Of a stretch of DNA of 64,000 nt, positions 10,808 to 62,484 are shown piece by piece. Position 1 is the stretch's first letter; every line of letters begins with the position of its first letter. Where the stretch lies: assembly GCF_963576615.1 (NCBI RefSeq), contig NC_088714.1:1798001-1862000 (forward strand), read 5' to 3'. The position numbers and the translations under genes are program-made. This stretch comes from Watersipora subatra. Lineage: Eukaryota > Bryozoa > Gymnolaemata > Cheilostomatida > Watersiporidae. The notes under the pieces are model-generated. The model saw only the letters and a program-made list of their open reading frames with translations. It was not told where the DNA came from and ran no database searches.

Positions 10808-13296
10808 AAAACTTCATATATCGTTTGATGGAATCCAATGTGACACTTAACAGTCATTAAGAAGCCTTCATATATCGTTTGATGGAATCCAATGTGACAC
10901 TTAACAGTCATTAAGAAGCCTTCATATATCGTTTGATGGAATCCAGTGTGACACTTAACAGTCATTAAGAAGCCTTCATATATCGTTTGATGGAATCCAA
11001 TGTGACACTTAACAGTCATTAAGAAGCCTTCATATATCGTTTGAGGGAATCCAGTGTGACACTTAACAGTCATTAAGAAGCCTTCATATATCGTTTGATG
11101 GAATCCAATGTGACACTTAACAGTCATTAAGAAGCCTTCATATATCGTTTGATGGAATCCAGTGTGACACTTAACAGTCATTAAGAAGCCTTCATATATC
11201 GTTTGATGGAATCCAGTGTGACACTTAACAGTCATTAAGAAGCCTTCATATATCGTTTGATGGAATCCAGTGTGACACTTAACAGTCATTAAGAAGCCTT
11301 CATATATCGTTTGATGGAATCCAGTGTGACACTTAACAGTCATTAAGAAGCCTTCATATATCGTTTGATGAAATCCAATGTGACACTTAACAGTCATTAA
11401 GAAGCCTTCATATATCGTTTGATGGAATCCAGTGTGACACTTAACAGTCATTAAGAAGCCTTCATATATCGTTTGATGGAATCCAGTGTGACACTTAACG
11501 GTCATTAAGAAGCCTTCATATATCGTTTGATGGAATCCAGTGTGACACTTAACGGTCATTAAGAAGCCTTCATATATCGTTTGATGGAATCCAATGTGAC
11601 ACTTAACAGTCATTAAGAAGCCTTCATATATCGTTTGATGGAATCCAATGTGACATTTAACAGTCATTAAGAAGCCTTCATATATCGTTTGATGGAATCC
11701 AGTGTGACACTTAACAGTCATTAAGAAGCCTTCATATATCGTTTGATGGAATCTAGTGTGACACTTAACAGTCATTAAGAAGCCTTCATATATCGTTTGA
11801 TGGAATCCAGTGTGACACTTAACAGTCATTAAGAAGCCTTCATATATCGTTTGATGGAATCCAGTGTGACACTTGACAGTCATTAAGAAGCCTTCATATA
11901 TCGTTTGATGGAATCCAATGTGACACTTAACAGTCATTAAGAAGCCTTCATATATCGTTTGATGGAATCCAATGTGACACTTAACAGTCATTAAGAAGCC
12001 TTTATATATCGTTTGATGGAATCCAGTGTGACACTTAACAGTCATTAAGAAGCCATCATATATCGTTTGATGGAATCCAGTGTGACACTTAACAGTCATT
12101 AAGAAGCCTTCATATATCGTTTGATGGAATCCAATGTGACACTTGACAGTCATTAAGAAGCCTTCATATATCGTTTGATGGAATCCAGTGTGACACTTAA
12201 CAGTCATTAAGAAGCCATCATATATCGTTTGATGGAATCCAGTGTGACACTTAACAGTCATTAAGAAGCCTTCATATATCGTTTGATGGAATCCAATGTG
12301 ACACTTGACAGTCATTAAGAAGCCTTCATATATCGTTTGATGGATTCCAATGTGACACTTAACAGTCATTAAGAAGCCTTCATATATCGTTTGATGGAAT
12401 CCAATGTGACACTTAACAGTCATTAAGAAGCCTTTATATATCGTTTGATGGAATCCAGTGTGACACTTAACAGTCATTAAGAAGCCTTCATATATCGTTT
12501 GATGGAATCCAGTGTGACACTTGACAGTCATTAAGAAGCCTTCATATATCGTTTGATGGAATCCAATGTGACACTTAACAGTCATTAAGAAGCCTTCATA
12601 TATCGTTTGATGGAATCCAATGTGACACTTGACAGTCATTAAGAAGCCTTCATATATCGTTTGATGGAATCCAGTGTGACACTTAACAGTCATTAAGAAG
12701 CCATCATATATCGTTTGATGGAATCCAGTGTGACACTTAACAGTCATTAAGAAGCCTTCATATATCGTTTGATGGAATCCAATGTGACACTTGACAGTCA
12801 TTAAGAAGCCTTCATATATCGTTTGATGGATTCCAATGTGACACTTAACAGTCATTAAGAAGCCTTCATATATCGTTTGATGGAATCCAATGTGACACTT
12901 AACAGTCATTAAGAAGCCTTTATATATCGTTTGATGGAATCCAGTGTGACACTTAACAGTCATTAAGAAGCCATCATATATCTTTTGATGGAATCCAGTG
13001 TGACACTTAACAGTCATTAAGAAGCCATCATATATCGTTTGATGGAATCCATTGTGACACTTAACAGTCATTAAGAAGCCATTATATATCGTTTGATGGA
13101 ATCCAGTGTGACACTTAACAGTCATTAAGAAGCCATCATATATCGTTTGATGGAATCCGATGTGACACTTAACAGTCATTAAGAAGCCTTTATATATCGT
13201 TTGATGGAATCCAGTGTGACACTTAACAGTCATTAAGAAGCCATCATATATCGTTTGATGGAAACCAATGTGACACTTAACAGTCATTAAGAAGCC
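10808..13296. repeat. Minisatellite, 54-bp unit, about 46 copies
   Basis: A tandem array with core catatatcgtttgatggaat and acttaacagtcattaagaag. Because 54 is a multiple of three and the unit has no stop in one minus-strand frame, the array creates an open frame of more than 850 codons with an 18-residue period. Variant sites change that peptide freely (Ile/Thr, Glu/Asp/Lys), as expected for noncoding DNA. Unit variants recur in blocks 486 bp apart (nine units), a sign of segmental duplication inside the array. Confidence 0.95.
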
Positions 13297-16377: not shown

Positions 16378-16390
16378 CTAAAATAGGGTT

Positions 16391-19300
16391 TCACATTATG
16401 ACTCAGTTGGTAATACAAGGATCATGCATGTTGTGTTGTTTCACCTTATGACTCAGTTGGTAATATAAGGATCATGCATGTTGTGTTGTTTCACCTCATG
16501 ACTCAGTTGGTAATATAAGGATCATGCATGTTGTGTTGTTTCACCTTATGACTCAGTTGGTAATATAAGGATCATGCATGTTGTGTTGTGTCACCTCATG
16601 ACTCGGTTGGTAATATAAGGATCATGCATGTTGTGTTGTTTCACCTTATGACTCAGTTGGTAATATAAGGATCATGCATGTTGTGTTGTTTTACCTTATG
16701 ACTCAGTTGGTAATATAAAGATCATGCATGTTGTGTTGTTTCACCTTATGACTCAGTTGGTAATATAAGGATTATGCATGTTGTGTTGTGTCACCTCATG
16801 ACTCAGTTGGTAATATAAGGATCATGCATGTTGTGTTGTTTTACCTTATGACTCAGTTGGTAATATAAGAATCATGCATGTTGTGTTGTTTTACCTTATG
16901 ACTCAGTTGGTAATATAAGGATCATGCATGTTGTGTTGTTTTACCTTATGACTCAGTTGGTAATATAAGGATCATGCATGTTGTGTTGTTTCACCTCATG
17001 ACTCAGTTGGCAATATAAGGATTATGCATGTTGTGTTGTTTCACCTTATGACTCAGTTGGTAATATAAGGATTATGCATGTTGTGTTGTTTCACCTTATG
17101 ACTCAGTTGGTAATATAAGGATCATGCATGTTGTGTTGTTTTACCTTATGACTCAGTTGGTAATATAAGGATCATGCATGTTGTGTTGTTTTACCTTATG
17201 ACTCAGTTGGTAATATAAGGATCATGCATGTTGTGTTGTTTTACCTTATGACTCAGTTGGTAATATAAGGATCATGCATGTTGTGTTGTTTTACCTTATG
17301 ACTCAGTTGGTAATATAAGGATCATGCATGTTGTGTTGTTTCACCTCATGACTCAGTTGGTAATATAACGATCATGCATGTTGTGTTGTTTCACCTTAAG
17401 ACTCAGTTGGTAATATAAGGATTATGCGTGTTGTGTTGTTTCACCTTATGACTCAGTTGGTAATATAAGGATTATGCATGTTGTGTTGTTTCACCTTATG
17501 ACTCAGTTGGTAATATAAGGATCATGCATGTTGTGTTGTTTTACCTTATGACTCAGTTGGTAATATAAAGATCATGCATGTTGTGTTGTTTCACCTTATG
17601 ACTCAGTTGGTAATATAAGGATTATGCATGTTGTGTTGTTTCACCTTATGACTCAGTTGGTAATATCAGAATCATGCATGTTGTGTTGTTTCACCTTATG
17701 ACTAAGTTGGTAATATAAGGATCATGCATGTTGTGTTGTTTTACCTTATGACTCAGTTGGTAATATAAGGATCATGCATGTTGTGTTGTTTCACCTTATG
17801 ACTCAGTTGGTAATATAAGGATCATGCATGTTGTGTTGTTTCACCTTATGACTCGGTTGGTAATATAAGGATCATGCATGTTGTGTTGTTTCACCTTATG
17901 ACTCAGTTGGTAATATAAGGATCATGCATGTTGTGTTGTTTCACCTTATGACTCAGTTGGTAATATAAGGATCATGCATGTTGTGTTGTGTCACCTTATG
18001 ACTCAGTTGGTAATACAAGGATCATGCATGTTGTGATGTGTCACCTCATGACTCAGTTGGTAATATAAGGATCATGCATATTGTGATGTTTCACCTCATG
18101 ACTCGGTTGGTAATATAAGGATCATGCATGTTGTGTTGTGTCACCTTATGACTCAGTTGGTAATACAAAGATCATGGATGTAGTGATGTTTCACCTTATG
18201 ACTCAGTTGGTAAAATAAGGATCATGCATGTTGCGTTGTGTCACCTCATGACTCGGTTGGTAATATAAGGATTATGCATGTTGTGTTGTTTCACCTTATG
18301 ACTCAGTTGGTAATATAAGGATCATGCATGTTGTGTTGTTTCACCTTATGACTCAGTTGGTAATATAAGGATCATGCATGTTGTTTTGTGTCACCTTATG
18401 ACTCAGTTGGTAATACAAGGATCATGCATGTTGTGATGTGTCACCTCATGACTCAGTTGGTAATATAAGGATCATGCATATTGTGATGTTTCACCTCATG
18501 ACTCAGTTGGTAATATAAGGATCATGCATGTTGTGTTGTGTCACCTTATGACTCAGTTGGTAATACAAGGATCATGGATGTAGTGATGTTTCACCTTATG
18601 ACTCAGTTGGTAATATAAGGATCATGCATGTTGTGTTGTTTTACCTTATGACTCAGTTGGTAATATAAGGATCATGCATGTTGTGTTGTTTTACCTTATG
18701 ACTCAGTTGGTAATTTAAGGATCATGCATGTTGTGTTGTTTCACCTTATGACTCAGTTGGTAATACAAGGATCATGCATGTTGTGTTGTCTCACCTCATG
18801 ACTCAGTTGGTAATGTAAGGATCATGCATGTTGTGTTGTTTCACCTCATGACTCAGTTGGTAATATAAGGATCATGCATGTTGTGTTGTTTTACCTTATG
18901 ACTCAGTTGGTAATATAAGGATCATGCATGTTGTGTTGTGTCACCTTATGACTCAGTTGGTAATATAGGGATTATGCATGTTGTGTTGTTTCACCTTATG
19001 ACTCAGTTGGTAATATAACGATCATGCATGTTGTGTTGTTTCACCTTATGACTCAGTTGGTAATATAAGGATCATGCATGTTGTGTTGTTTTACCTTATG
19101 ACTCAGTTGGTAATATAAGGATCATGCATGTTGTGTTGTGTCACCTTATGACTCAGTTGGTAATACAAGGATCATGCATGTTGTGATGTGTCACCTCATG
19201 ACTCAGTTGGTAATATAAGGATCATGCATATTGTGATGTTTCACCTCATGACTCGGTTGGTAATATAAGGATCATGCATGTTGTGTTGTGTCACCTTATG

Positions 19301-22300
19301 ACTCAGTTGGTAATACAAAGATCATGGGTGTAGTGATGTTTCACCTTATGACTCAGTTGGTAAAATAAGGATCATGCATGTTGCGTTGTGTCACCTCATG
19401 ACTCGGTTGGTAATATAAGGATCATGCATGTTGTGTTGTTTCACCTTAAGACTCAGTTGGTAATATAAGGATTATGCGTGTTGTGTTGTTTTACCTTATG
19501 ACTCAGTTGGTAATATAAGGATTATGCATGTTGTGTTGTTTCACCTTATGACTCAGTTGGTAATATAAGGATTATGCATGTTGTGTTGTTTCACCTTATG
19601 ACTCAGTTGGTAATATAAGGATTATGCATGTTGTGTTGTTTCACCTTATGACTCAGTTGGTAATATAAGGATCATGCATGTAGTGATGTTTCACCTTATG
19701 ACTCAGTTGGTAATATAATGATCATGCATGTTGTGTTGTCTCACCTTATGACTCAGTTGGTAATATAAGGATCATGCATGTTGTGTTGTGTCACCTTATG
19801 ACTCAGTTGGTAATATAAGGATCATGCATGTTGTGTTGTTTTACCTTATGACTCAGTTGGTAATACAAGGATCATGCATGTTGTGTTGTTTCACCTTACG
19901 ACTCAGTTGGTAATATAAGGATCATGCATGTTGTGTTGTTTCACCTCACGACTCGGTTGGTAATATAAAGATCATGCATGTTGTGTTGTGTCACCTCACG
20001 ACTCAGTTGGTAATATAAAGATCATGCATGTTGTGTTGTTTCACCTTATGACTCAGTTGGTAATATAAGGATCATGCATGTTGTGTTGTGTCACCTCATG
20101 ACTCAGTTGGTAATATAAAGATCATGCATGTTGTGTTGTTTCACCTTATGACTCAGTTGGTAATATAAGGATTATGCGTGTTGTGTTGTTTCACCTTATG
20201 ACTCAGTTGGTAATATAAGGATTATGCATGTTGTGTTGTTTCACCTTATGACTCAGTTGGTAATATAAGGATCATGCATGTTGTGTTGTTTTACCTTATG
20301 ACTCAGTTGGTAATATAAAGATCATGCATGTTGTGTTGTTTCACCTTATGACTCAGTTGGTAATATAAGGATTATGCATGTTGTGTTGTTTCACCTTATG
20401 ACTCAGTTGGTAATATCAGAATCATGCATGTTGTGTTGTTTCACCTTATGACTAAGTTGGTAATATAAGGATCATGCATGTTGTGTTGTTTTACCTTATG
20501 ACTCAGTTGGTAATATAAGGATCATGCATGTTGTGTTGTTTCACCTTATGACTCAGTTGGTAATATAAGGATCATGCATGTTGTGTTGTTTCACCTTATG
20601 ACTCGGTTGGTAATATAAGGATCATGCATGTTGTGTTGTTTCACCTTATGACTCAGTTGGTAATATAAGGATCATGCATGTTGTGTTGTTTCACCTTATG
20701 ACTCAGTTGGTAATATAAGGATCATGCATGTTGTGTTGTGTCACCTTATGACTCAGTTGGTAATACAAGGATCATGCATGTTGTGATGTGTCACCTCATG
20801 ACTCAGTTGGTAATATAAGGATCATGCATATTGTGATGTTTCACCTCATGACTCGGTTGGTAATATAAGGATCATGCATGTTGTCTTGTGTCACCTTATG
20901 ACTCAGTTGGTAATACAAAGATCATGGATGTAGTGATGTTTCACCTTATGACTCAGTTGGTAAAATAAGGATCATGCATGTTGCGTTGTGTCACCTCATG
21001 ACTCGGTTGGTAATATAAGGATTATGCATGTTGTGTTGTTTCACCTTATGACTCAGTTGGTAATATAAGGATCATGCATGTTGTGTTGTTTCACCTTATG
21101 ACTCAGTTGGTAATATAAGGATCATGCATGTTGTTTTGTGTCACCTTATGACTCAGTTGGTAATACAAGGATCATGCATGTTGTGATGTGTCACCTCATG
21201 ACTCAGTTGGTAATATAAGGATCATGCATATTGTGATGTTTCACCTCATGACTCAGTTGGTAATATAAGGATCATGCATGTTGTGTTGTGTCACCTTATG
21301 ACTCAGTTGGTAATACAAGGATCATGGATGTAGTGATGTTTCACCTTATGACTCAGTTGGTAATATAAGGATCATGCATGTTGTGTTGTTTTACCTTATG
21401 ACTCAGTTGGTAATATAAGGATCATGCATGTTGTGTTGTTTTACCTTATGACTCAGTTGGTAATATAAGGATCATGCATGTTGTGTTGTTTCACCTTATG
21501 ACTCAGTTGGTAATACAAGGATCATGCATGTTGTGTTGTCTCACCTCATGACTCAGTTGGTAATATAAGGATCATGCATGTTGTGTTGTTTCACCTCATG
21601 ACTCAGTTGGTAATATAAGGATCATGCATGTTGTGTTGTTTTACCTTATGACTCAGTTGGTAATATAAGGATCATGCATGTTGTGTTGTGTCACCTTATG
21701 ACTCAGTTGGTAATATAGGGATTATGCATGTTGTGTTGTTTCACCTTATGACTCAGTTGGTAATATAACGATCATGCATGTTGTGTTGTTTCACCTTATG
21801 ACTCAGTTGGTAATATAAGGATCATGCATGTTGTGTTGTTTTACCTTATGACTCAGTTGGTAATATAAGGATCATGCATGTTGTGTTGTGTCACCTTATG
21901 ACTCAGTTGGTAATACAAGGATCATGCATGTTGTGATGTGTCACCTCATGACTCAGTTGGTAATATAAGGATCATGCATATTGTGATGTTTCACCTCATG
22001 ACTCGGTTGGTAATATAAGGATCATGCATGTTGTGTTGTGTCACCTTATGACTCAGTTGGTAATACAAAGATCATGGGTGTAGTGATGTTTCACCTTATG
22101 ACTCAGTTGGTAAAATAAGGATCATGCATGTTGCGTTGTGTCACCTCATGACTCGGTTGGTAATATAAGGATCATGCATGTTGTGTTGTTTCACCTTAAG
22201 ACTCAGTTGGTAATATAAGGATTATGCGTGTTGTGTTGTTTTACCTTATGACTCAGTTGGTAATATAAGGATTATGCATGTTGTGTTGTTTCACCTTATG

Positions 22301-24530
22301 ACTCAGTTGGTAATATAAGGATTATGCATGTTGTGTTGTTTCACCTTATGACTCAGTTGGTAATATAAGGATTATGCATGTTGTGTTGTTTCACCTTATG
22401 ACTCAGTTGGTAATATAAGGATCATGCATGTAGTGATGTTTCACCTTATGACTCAGTTGGTAATATAATGATCATGCATGTTGTGTTGTCTCACCTTATG
22501 ACTCAGTTGGTAATATAAGGATCATGCATGTTGTGTTGTGTCACCTTATGACTCAGTTGGTAATATAAGGATCATGCATGTTGTGTTGTTTTACCTTATG
22601 ACTCAGTTGGTAATACAAGGATCATGCATGTTGTGTTGTTTCACCTTACGACTCAGTTGGTAATATAAGGATCATGCATGTTGTGTTGTTTCACCTCACG
22701 ACTCGGTTGGTAATATAAAGATCATGCATGTTGTGTTGTGTCACCTCACGACTCAGTTGGTAATATAAAGATCATGCATGTTGTGTTGTTTCACCTTATG
22801 ACTCAGTTGGTAATATAAGGATCATGCATGTTGTGTTGTGTCACCTCATGACTCAGTTGGTAATATAAGGATCATGTATGTTGTGATGTTTCACCTTATA
22901 ACTCAGTTGGTAATATAAGGATCATGCATGTTGTGTTGTGTCACCTTATGACTCAGTTGGTAATACAAGGATCATGCATGTTGTGATGTGTCACCTCATG
23001 ACTCAGTTGGTAATATAAGGATCATGCATGTTGTGTTGTTTCACCTTATGACTCAGTTGGTAATATAAGGATCATGCATGTTGTGTTGTTTCACCTTATG
23101 ACTCGGTTGGTAATATAAGGATCATGCATGTTGTGTTGTTTCACCTTATGACTCAGTTGGTAATATAAGGATCATGCATGTTGTGTTGTTTCACCTTATG
23201 ACTCAGTTGGTAATATAAGGATCATGCATGTTGTGTTGTGTCACCTTATGACTCAGTTGGTAATACAAGGATCATGCATGTTGTGATGTGTCACCTCATG
23301 ACTCAGTTGGTAATATAAGGATCATGCATATTGTGATGTTTCACCTCATGACTCGGTTGGTAATATAAGGATCATGCATGTTGTGTTGTGTCACCTTATG
23401 ACTCAGTTGGTAATACAAAGATCATGGGTGTAGTGATGTTTCACCTTATGACTCAGTTGGTAAAATAAGGATCATGCATGTTGCGTTGTGTCACCTCATG
23501 ACTCGGTTGGTAATATAAGGATCATGCATGTTGTGTTGTTTCACCTTAAGACTCAGTTGGTAATATAAGGATTATGCGTGTTGTGTTGTTTTACCTTATG
23601 ACTCAGTTGGTAATATAAGGATTATGCATGTTGTGTTGTTTCACCTTATGACTCAGTTGGTAATATAAGGATTATGCATGTTGTGTTGTTTCACCTTATG
23701 ACTCAGTTGGTAATATAAGGATTATGCATGTTGTGTTGTTTCACCTTATGACTCAGTTGGTAATATAAGGATCATGCATGTAGTGATGTTTCACCTTATG
23801 ACTCAGTTGGTAATATAATGATCATGCATGTTGTGTTGTCTCACCTTATGACTCAGTTGGTAATATAAGGATCATGCATGTTGTGTTGTGTCACCTTATG
23901 ACTCAGTTGGTAATATAAGGATCATGCATGTTGTGTTGTTTTACCTTATGACTCAGTTGGTAATACAAGGATCATGCATGTTGTGTTGTTTCACCTTACG
24001 ACTCAGTTGGTAATATAAGGATCATGCATGTTGTGTTGTTTCACCTCACGACTCGGTTGGTAATATAAAGATCATGCATGTTGTGTTGTGTCACCTCACG
24101 ACTCAGTTGGTAATATAAAGATCATGCATGTTGTGTTGTTTCACCTTATGACTCAGTTGGTAATATAAGGATCATGCATGTTGTGTTGTGTCACCTCATG
24201 ACTCAGTTGGTAATATAAGGATCATGTATGTTGTGATGTTTCACCTTATAACTCAGTTAGTAATATAAGGATGATGCATGTTGTGTTGTGTCACCTCATG
24301 ACTCAGTTGGTAATATAAGGATCATGCATGTTGTGTTGTTTCACCTTATGACTCAGTTGGTAATATAAGGATCATGCATGTTGTGTTGTGTCACCTCATG
24401 ACTCGGTTGGTAATATAAGGATCATGCATGTTGTGATGTTTCACCTTATGACTCAGTTGATAATATAAGGATCATGCATGTTGTGTTGTTTCACTTCATG
24501 ACTCAGGTGGTAATATAAGGATCATGCATG
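16391..24530. repeat. 8.1-kb minisatellite, 50-bp unit, about 163 copies
   Basis: Tandem array with unit parts tcaccttatgactcagttgg, taatataagg, atcatgcatg and ttgtgttgtt, in strict 50-bp register. It fills almost the whole intron between the NBD1 signature exon and the H-loop exon. Rare variants recur at fixed distances. For example taatatcaga is at 17661 and 20411, and atcatgggtg is at 19321, 22071 and 23421. This shows block duplications of 2750 bp (55 units) and 1350 bp (27 units). Confidence 0.97.
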
Positions 24531-24563
24531 TTGCATTACTCTTTGGAGCTCACTAAAACCTCA

Positions 24564-26277
<1,714 letters not shown>

Positions 26278-60832: not shown

Positions 60833-61055
60833 TGAAGGTTGGGTGTTCATCGTTGTTCCCATTCAGATCTGTATTGTTATATATATGCTTCATCGGCTGA
60901 TGGGCAACAGCATTTTTGCTGGAGTTGCAATACTGCTTGTGGCAGCACCAGTTTCATTTGCTATCGGAATCCTTCAGAGGAAGATCAGGGTAAAAACTAT
61001 GAAAATCAAAGATGAACGAATAAAGTTGCTTAAAGAGGTGCTTTCATCTATCAAG
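60833..61055 (+). CDS. ABCC exon: TMD1 helices 3-4
   Basis: The 223-nt exon completes a Tyr codon and encodes EGWVFIVVPIQICIVIYML, then an FAGVAILLVAAPVS helix, then KIKDERIKLLKEVLSSIK. This matches the ABCC pattern W..P.QI......L, P.N and D.RIKL..E.L..IK. Acceptor is TTTCAG and donor is AAG|GTGTGT. A 17-bp array starts directly downstream of the donor. Confidence 0.96.
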
Positions 61056-61074
61056 GTGTGTGTATGCGGATCAT

Positions 61075-61348
61075 ACTCTATGTCAATATGTCAATGTGCC
61101 CTCTATGTCAATGTGCCCTCTATGTCAATGTGCCCTCTATGTCAATGTGCCCTCTATGTCAATGTGCCCTCTATGTCAATGTGCCCTCTATGTCAATGTG
61201 CCCTCTATGTCAATGTGCCCTCTATGTCAATGTGCCCTCTATGTCAATGTGCCCTCTATGTCAATGTGCCCTCTATGTCAATGTGCCCTCTATGTCAATG
61301 TGCCCTCTATATCAATGTGCCCTCTATATCAATGTGCCCTCTATGTCA
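61075..61348. repeat. Minisatellite, 17-bp unit, about 16 copies
   Basis: Units of tgccctctatgtcaatg, beginning about 20 bp after the donor of the preceding exon. Cys/Pro-rich open frames come only from the repeat. The real exon ends at the GTGTGT donor. Confidence 0.95.
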
Positions 61349-61584
61349 GTGTTCATGCCGCAATGATCTATTAGATTTTCGCAGCTTGTATGGCTTCCCT
61401 TTACATGTCGTTTTTGCCATCTCCTTTGAACCAGACTTCCAGTAAATTTTGCAGTGCTAACTTCAATTCTTTTCACTGTAACAAATAGTGGTCATTTTGA
61501 AATAAACTGGATGTGACGCCTGCTGTATTTTTTTGCGTCAACATCAAAACTTTTAGCACCTTTACTCACAAGCTATTTAGTTGT

Positions 61585-62031
61585 ATACCTGGTAGTTATT
61601 CCTTTAGTGACAGGTTATTAAACTCTATGCCTGGTAGTTATTCCTTTACTGACAGGTTATTAAACTCTATGCCTGGTAGTTATTCCTTTAGTGACAGGTT
61701 ATTAAACTGTATGCCTGGTAGTTATTCCTTTAGTGACAGGTTATTAAACTCTATGCCTGGTAGTTATTCCTTTAGTGACAGGTTATTAAACTCTATACCT
61801 GGTAGTTATTCCTTTACTGACAGATTATTAAACTGTATGCCTGGTAGTTATTCCTTTAGTGACAGGTTATTAAACTCTATACCTGGTAGTTATTCCTTTA
61901 GTGACAGATTATTAAACTATGTCTGGGAGTTATTCCTTCACTGACAGGTTATTAAACTCTATACCTGATAGTTATTCCTTTAGTGACAGGTTATTAAACT
62001 GTATGTCTGGTAATTATTCCTTTACTGACAG
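61585..62031. repeat. Splice-acceptor-bearing minisatellite, 42-bp unit, about 11 copies
   Basis: Each unit reads ttcctttagtgacag and then gttattaaactctatgcctgg. The first part is a pyrimidine-containing acceptor, and the second copies the first 21 nt of the real exon at 62032 with two synonymous changes, still encoding VIKLYAW. A TAG follows at once in each repeat unit. Only the last copy opens into the full exon. The 42-bp spacing is regular apart from one-base shifts near the 3' end. Confidence 0.95.
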
Positions 62032-62169
62032 GTTATTAAGCTGTATGCCTGGGAGCCATCATTCCAGAGGAAAGTTACTTTGTTGAGGAAAAGTGAAGTT
62101 TTGCGACAAAGAACTTTGAATATTATCAGGGCTATCCAGAATTCTCTTTATAATATTGTACCTGTTCTG
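62032..62169 (+). CDS. ABCC exon: TMD1 KLYAWE motif
   Basis: The 46-codon phase 0-0 exon begins VIKLYAWEPSFQRKV, the hallmark ABCC TMD1 motif IK.LKLYAWE, and continues with LRKSEVLRQRT and a further helix start. Acceptor is CTGACAG|GTTATT, which is the last copy of an acceptor repeated about ten times in the array upstream. Donor is CTG|GTACGT. Confidence 0.95.
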
Positions 62170-62484
62170 GTACGTATGAAGTAATAGGTGATTTTGGATG
62201 GTTCTGTCAATGTCATACACCAACATGAGTCAACTTGAGTCCTCGCTTGTACTTCTTCGTAAGATTTGTAAGGAACATCATAAAGTTGACTAGCAAACAA
62301 GAGGTGTACAGCCTAGCTACCCTTTACACTCTTGATAAGATATGCCAAAACTGAGTGTATACAAACCAAGCTTTACGCTTTTATATGGTTGCAACAAAAA
62401 CGAAAGTGTCAGTTGTGTAGAATCAACTTAACAATAAACATTTACAATTTCCAAGTTTTGTGCATTACATGCTTTTGCTACATG
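62170..62484. other. ABCC intron, nothing recognised
   Basis: About 300 bp between the KLYAWE exon and the 16-bp array, with no supported feature. Confidence 0.5.

Follow-up and report, generated by a model that had tools for sequence, protein, structure and literature searches.

Introduction

What becomes of splicing when a 3′ splice site, together with the first codons of the exon that it bounds, is repeated in tandem directly upstream of the working copy? This question is raised by a 64,000-nucleotide stretch of chromosome C7 from the bryozoan Watersipora subatra (NC_088714.1, positions 1,798,001 to 1,862,000; hereafter the window), in which such an array precedes an exon of an ABC transporter gene. 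The kind of array is already known but little studied; the earlier case is that of the mirages of lancelets (amphioxus), and the present one is in Bryozoa. As they have been described, amphioxus mirages are tandem copies of an acceptor or a donor with a short piece of exon, in units of 10–160 bp. A search of the open-access literature for splice-boundary arrays of this type yielded amphioxus reports. Another, on minisatellites in bryozoan introns, gave no report from that phylum; reports elsewhere may exist.

Host Genes

Two genes in the window, one on each strand, can be assigned to the ABCC (MRP-type) transporters by homology of their membrane domains and NBDs. The two joined exons of the plus-strand gene match PF00664 (5.3e-12), with MRP3 as the best PDB match (3.3e-22), and their junction falls in the ABCC match at ...IK/VxKLYAWE. 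Three joined NBD1 exons of the minus-strand gene match PF00005 (2.2e-9), with ABCC2 as the best PDB match (7.4e-80). This second gene has NBD1, TMD2 and NBD2 exons in the window, within which tblastn with an MRP1 query found no TMD1 exon upstream of it. The stretch upstream (window 26.6–48 kb) holds retroelement open frames. Because of these frames and the missing TMD1 match, the minus-strand gene may be truncated.

Structure of the Boundary Array

TRF, run on the 64-kb window, describes the array at the TMD1 exon (Table 1) as 11.2 copies of a 42-bp unit with 90% matches, and 21 nt of the real exon lie inside its span. A typical unit joins 24 nt from the exon start, GTTATTAAACTSTATGCCTGGKAG, to the 18 nt with which the intron ends, TTATTCCTTTASTGACAG. 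When the array is split at the acceptor, it comprises ten decoy copies, of which nine are 42 bp long and one is shorter, at 40 bp; they start at 61614, 61656, 61698, 61740, 61782, 61824, 61866, 61908, 61948 and 61990. The motif TTYA[GC]TGACAG occurs 11 times on the plus strand, always within the array, and not on the other strand of the 64 kb; the real acceptor motif occupies 62021–62031, with the junction at 62031/62032. An earlier note on this DNA had counted eleven 42-bp units, each with a complete acceptor and the first 21 nt of the exon. Its eleven acceptor motifs are confirmed, but they belong to ten decoys and the real site, and the exon-derived part is 24 nt long, including the Glu codon GAG. 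This codon has become TAG in most copies and is retained in the 40-bp unit of the window and in unit 1 of two paralogous arrays (L010 and L011, below).

Table 1. Positions of the exons and minisatellites discussed in the text (window coordinates)
Feature	Position	Strand	Basis or remark
Upstream coding exon (TMD1), ends ...EVLSSIK, donor GTGTGT at 61056	60833..61055	+	Open frame with ABCC homology; boundaries from sequence
17-bp minisatellite, 15.6 copies, no exon content, same intron as 42-bp array	61087..61352	+	TRF
Array 5′ edge, unit that seems decayed, with decoy acceptor 1 (TTTAGTGACAG, 61603–61613) at its end	61560..61613	+	Decay judged by eye
Boundary minisatellite, 10 decoy copies	61584..62052	+	TRF, unit table
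40-bp unit, 2-bp deletion and GGGAG, TTCA-type acceptor	61908..61947	+	Unit table
Last intronic unit, only unit without internal AG (TGGTAA, TTTAC)	61990..62031	+	Unit table
Real exon, 138 nt, 46 codons, phase 0 at both ends (VIKLYAWEPSFQ...NIVPVL), donor GTACGT at 62170	62032..62169	+	
Real NBD1 exon of the minus-strand ABCC gene	24585..24764	-	Boundaries read from sequence
Second boundary minisatellite, 21 decoys of 70 bp	24750..26277	-	TRF

Paralogous Loci and Age of the Array

The same chromosome has three close copies of a 1.2-kb region around the array (L009, L010 and L011), located near 1.62, 1.75 and 1.98 Mb. The window has 10 decoys, L009 has 13, and L010 and L011 have 4 each. When the window is aligned with L009, the first three units are identical, as are two of the last three, the last being 2 bases apart, whereas the interior units differ. 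The 40-bp unit recurs unchanged in L009, where it is third from last. Length instability, homogenisation of the interior and distinct edge units, which characterise mirages, are thus all found here, the comparison of lengths being one between paralogs.

Two more distant members of the cluster, L012 and L013, have the same phase-0 intron without a repeated acceptor, and in two ABCC genes elsewhere in the genome, L038 (on C10) and L041 (on C3), the same intron likewise has no array at its acceptor. The intron is therefore older and the array derived. The third codon of the real exon is AAA in L010 and L011, as in the decoys, and AAG in the window, L009, L012 and L013; the array-free L041 also has AAA.

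Coding Content and Splice Signals of the Decoys

The units had been said to encode VIKLYAW, which is exact for four of the ten window decoys; the remaining six carry A>T, V>I, A>V, a frameshift or W>stop. Translation from any of the ten decoy acceptors meets a premature stop after 6–15 codons, so that the claim that the last copy alone gives the full exon stands, and the stop is the predicted TAG in seven copies but TGA or TAA in the other three. Since the intron ends, in the frame of the exon, with TGA CAG, nearly every copy that is retained should run into a stop. In the four loci together, the AG is intact in all 31 decoys and every one of them ends in a stop; if the second array described below is added, the AG is kept in 139 of 140 decoys, and all reach a stop within 6–17 codons.

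The 31 decoys are variable at 9 of the 24 exon-derived sites, one of them solely by a gap, and at 4 of the 18 intron-derived sites. Six of the eight substituted exon-derived sites alter or terminate the protein, which rules out constraint on the decoys at the protein level. Over their first 24 nt, the real exons of the four loci vary at no more than two sites, both synonymous: the coding exon is conserved while the upstream copies drift. If the decoys were harmful, loss of their AGs would be expected, and if they were functional, their number should be conserved; neither is observed. Homogenisation within the array could also keep the decoy AGs alike.

Over the last 18 intron nucleotides, two decoys are identical to the real acceptor and another has a single base changed, and local acceptor sequence alone therefore cannot explain correct choice. 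The stretch free of AG upstream of the acceptor was also compared. Among the 11 acceptors of the window it is 42 nt long before the real one and 6 or 18 nt before the decoys. L009 has the 42-nt stretch as well, whereas that of L010 and L011 is 18 nt, so that AG exclusion fails as a general rule and is kept as a hint. The AG-free last unit of the two longest arrays may be a hint that a clean acceptor is selected for, but is most simply explained as one event common to two close paralogs.

A Second Boundary Array and a Donor-Side Version

In the second array (Table 1) the repeated piece is the acceptor with ~15 nt from the start of the exon that encodes the NBD1 signature. It is present in nine loci of the C7 cluster including the window, with 4 to 21 contiguous decoys per locus and 109 in total, a count that tolerates mismatches (8 in L030, 9 in L026, 6 in L027, 5 in L028 and 4 in L029); a stricter pattern applied over the whole locus gives 32 in L030, 4 in each of L026–L028 and 3 in L029. 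The AG is kept in 108 of the 109, and a stop follows after 6 or 17 codons in all. Across the eight loci compared with the window, the protein encoded by the NBD1 exon is 98–100% identical to that of the window. This array is absent from the three ABCC genes of C3 and C10 in which the NBD1 exon was examined.

A donor-side version was seen in L013 (C7, ~2,120,640–2,125,580), where an exon end, ...TCAAG/GTATGAC, is repeated in units of ~60 bp with three intact decoy donors and one decayed. The same locus has a 31-bp array in which an acceptor is repeated twice with at most one base of exon sequence, and a 21-bp array that begins 3 nt past another exon match.

Minisatellite Variation and Placement of the Arrays

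Minisatellites are abundant in this cluster. Arrays with a period of at least 10 make up 32% of the window and 38–52% of the other C7 loci, as against 4.5–5.7% of the other ABC loci examined. The minisatellites common to the four loci vary in copy number, and the 42-bp array does likewise. In the order window, L009, L010 and L011, the copies number 15.6, 15.6, 2.8 and 2.8 for the 17-bp array, 79, 37, 257 and 53 for a 16-bp array, 6, 7, 20 and 23 for a 31-bp array, 4.1, 4.1, 2.2 and 2.2 for a 58-bp array, and 11.2, 14.2, 5.3 and 5.8 for the 42-bp array.

The placement of the boundary arrays was examined by permutation within the window. Arrays intruding 8–60 nt into one of 16 exons were observed twice against 0.58 expected (P(≥2) = 0.11), with an input of 27 arrays merged by hand from 60 TRF rows, simple repeats and some short arrays being omitted and exon ends being approximate. 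There is thus no signal of boundary arrays above chance in the window, and they are explicable as minisatellites that by chance arose over a splice junction. Across the C7 loci analysed, the window among them, an array overlaps 14 of the 59 distinct exon matches (match edges are not always exon edges, and L013 and L031 have one match in common), whereas none of 24 exon matches in the control loci L038–L041 lies within 15 nt of an array. This contrast, which might be taken for enrichment, is biased, because the C7 copies share ancestry and L026–L033 were chosen for matching the second array, and it is further qualified by array densities about sixfold or more apart. Among the 20 ABC_tran matches listed, 12 were surveyed in short regions, 11 of them outside the C7 cluster; an array was present in 2 of the 12, each more than 100 nt from the match, whose edges are not exon edges.

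A 50-bp unit repeated 163 times (8.1 kb, 16388–24533) fills an intron of the minus-strand ABCC gene and ends 11 nt before the next exon; L026–L029 have the same gap with 50–89 copies. A 54-bp array of 46 copies (10812–13296) lies inside an 869-codon minus-strand open frame, which is kept open because the unit is a multiple of three and which is probably not a gene.

Discussion

The 42-bp array fits the definition of a mirage in every feature compared. First, the repeat spans an exon boundary and includes exon sequence, with 18 nt of intron and 24 nt of exon at the TMD1 exon, ~15 nt of exon in the second array, and exon sequence on the donor side in L013. Second, the splice signals are repeated across units, as counted above (AG in 31/31 and 108/109 decoys). 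Third, copy number varies, between haplotypes in amphioxus, as described there, and between paralogs here. In addition, either exon end can be affected, as has been reported for amphioxus. The differences are the host, a bryozoan with the arrays in its ABCC gene family, a description that comes here from genome sequence alone, and the size of the arrays: the amphioxus globin gene BflGb6 is described with 6 and 3 units, whereas up to 21 contiguous decoys are found per array here.

From what is directly observed (the anatomy of the array, its paralogy, the copy-number series, the stops and the conservation of the real exon), we consider it likely that this is a boundary minisatellite of the amphioxus-mirage kind, tolerated by its gene, with the exon-proximal acceptor in use. 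A 42-bp segment across the 3′ end of the intron (18 nt) and the exon start (24 nt) would have been duplicated in tandem, in the simplest case in an ancestor of the four paralogs, and perhaps seeded by the short repeat ATTCC on both sides. Slippage or unequal exchange would then have amplified it, and its length would have drifted, presumably neutrally, through ordinary minisatellite turnover. In exon definition, an acceptor that bounds a normal exon beside its donor keeps working. The spliceosome most likely picks the exon-proximal acceptor, because this site and the donor at 62170 together delimit a normal 138-nt exon. If a decoy were used now and then, translation would stop within 6–15 codons, and nonsense-mediated decay would be expected to clear the transcript.

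The earlier note had proposed instead that the array could tune splicing or trigger the decay of mis-spliced transcripts. In such a scheme the copies would compete for the spliceosome, and array length would set the share of transcripts sent to nonsense-mediated decay. All decoys do look usable and all lead to a premature stop, the clean 42-nt zone before the real acceptor occurs in the two long arrays and not in the two short ones, and the units of a human minisatellite, that of IFI6, are reported to act as splice donors that give three mRNA species (PMC4526556). We nevertheless regard such a regulator as unlikely and the proposal as unsupported. The number of copies is not conserved (10, 13, 4 and 4) and varies like that of other minisatellites nearby, the four ABCC paralogs L012, L013, L038 and L041 manage without the array, chance could account for where it lies in the window, and the clean zone is most simply a single event. 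Moreover, the amphioxus equivalents are reported to leave mRNAs unchanged: from Adh3 data and RT-PCR of globin, the authors suggest no interference with regular splicing (PMC3087553), and the mirages of Adh and troponin C, to which PGBD5 was added, are stated to yield no aberrant mRNAs (PMC3902484). The array is thus probably tolerated rather than regulatory. A bolder form of the proposal, which we think quite improbable, is that each added copy raises the share that is spliced to decoys and decayed, giving a fast-evolving dosage control set by copy number across the ABCC paralogs and compensated by the AG-free stretch at the real acceptor in the longest arrays.

Two human systems help to place the tolerated array. 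IFI6 (6-16) was reportedly described by Turri et al. in 1995 as carrying a minisatellite with repeated splice donors. It resembles the present case, as far as its description goes, in that a splice site is repeated by a minisatellite, and differs in that donors are involved and the copies are used in mRNAs; here acceptors are repeated, as read from the genome. Genes in human segmental duplications are reported to have variable internal tandem repeats, which, like the 42-bp array, differ in length between recent paralogs and alter gene structure (PMC2812944). In that account exons or introns are lengthened or cryptic sites activated, whereas here an existing acceptor lies within the unit.

A further reading, which seems highly doubtful, takes the array as material from which introns or exons may be remodelled, with the gain of an intron or the sliding of a boundary just begun. 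A model of this kind has been proposed for the amphioxus globin genes with their mirages (PMC3087553), and the AAA third codon of L010 and L011 may reflect exchange between array and exon. This codon is, however, a matter of one synonymous base, and AAA is found in the array-free L041 too. Intron gain by tandem duplication predicts that array-free relatives are without the intron; L012, L013, L038 and L041 all have it at the same position, and therefore no intron was gained here. Tandem arrays as a class are prone to mis-assembly, but an assembly artefact is hardly credible, since the arrays of four separate paralogous loci differ in length and have diagnostic units in common, and the assembly is stated to derive from HiFi reads with a consensus QV of 63 (PMC12902671).

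If these arrays are mirages, their occurrence in a bryozoan suggests that they can originate wherever minisatellites abound. The cluster forms a natural series, with 4, 4, 10 and 13 decoys in the first array and 4 to 21 in the second, near-identical acceptors and nearly the same exon, and this series bears on how a 3′ splice site is chosen among identical copies and on the effect of copy number. The locus is of moderate interest, because the paralogs offer a natural experiment on acceptor choice. Public poly(A) RNA-seq data and an alternate haplotype exist for W. subatra, according to its genome note (PMC12902671). The RNA-seq run is ERR11641139, the alternate haplotype is GCA_963576605.1, and the HiFi reads are ERR11458812 and ERR11458813.

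Other Observations

Comparison of open reading frames between the strands recovered mainly a repeated element unrelated to ABCC, of which two related copies with matching short open frames lie at ~2.8–3.65 kb and 53.1–54.0 kb of the window. No relatives were confirmed among other genome contigs and viral contigs. In the window, neither Rfam models at their gathering threshold nor a tRNA scan gave a match. Long translations with stops masked had no match in PDB or Pfam, a search that is uninformative because the known exons were missed as well. No COX1 was found in the genome.

TTAGGG, the end repeat of most animals, is not the repeat at the end of C7 or at the start of C1. No repeat of TTTGGGG type occurs in the first 3 kb of C7. 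For a TTTGGGG telomere in Metazoa, the open-access literature search gave just a dinoflagellate paper, and no word in the main text of the Watersipora genome note starts with "telomer" (PMC12902671). The first 3 kb of C1 begin with CCCCAAA, and the last 3 kb of C7 are an array of TTTGGGG, counted by TRF at 422.6 copies.
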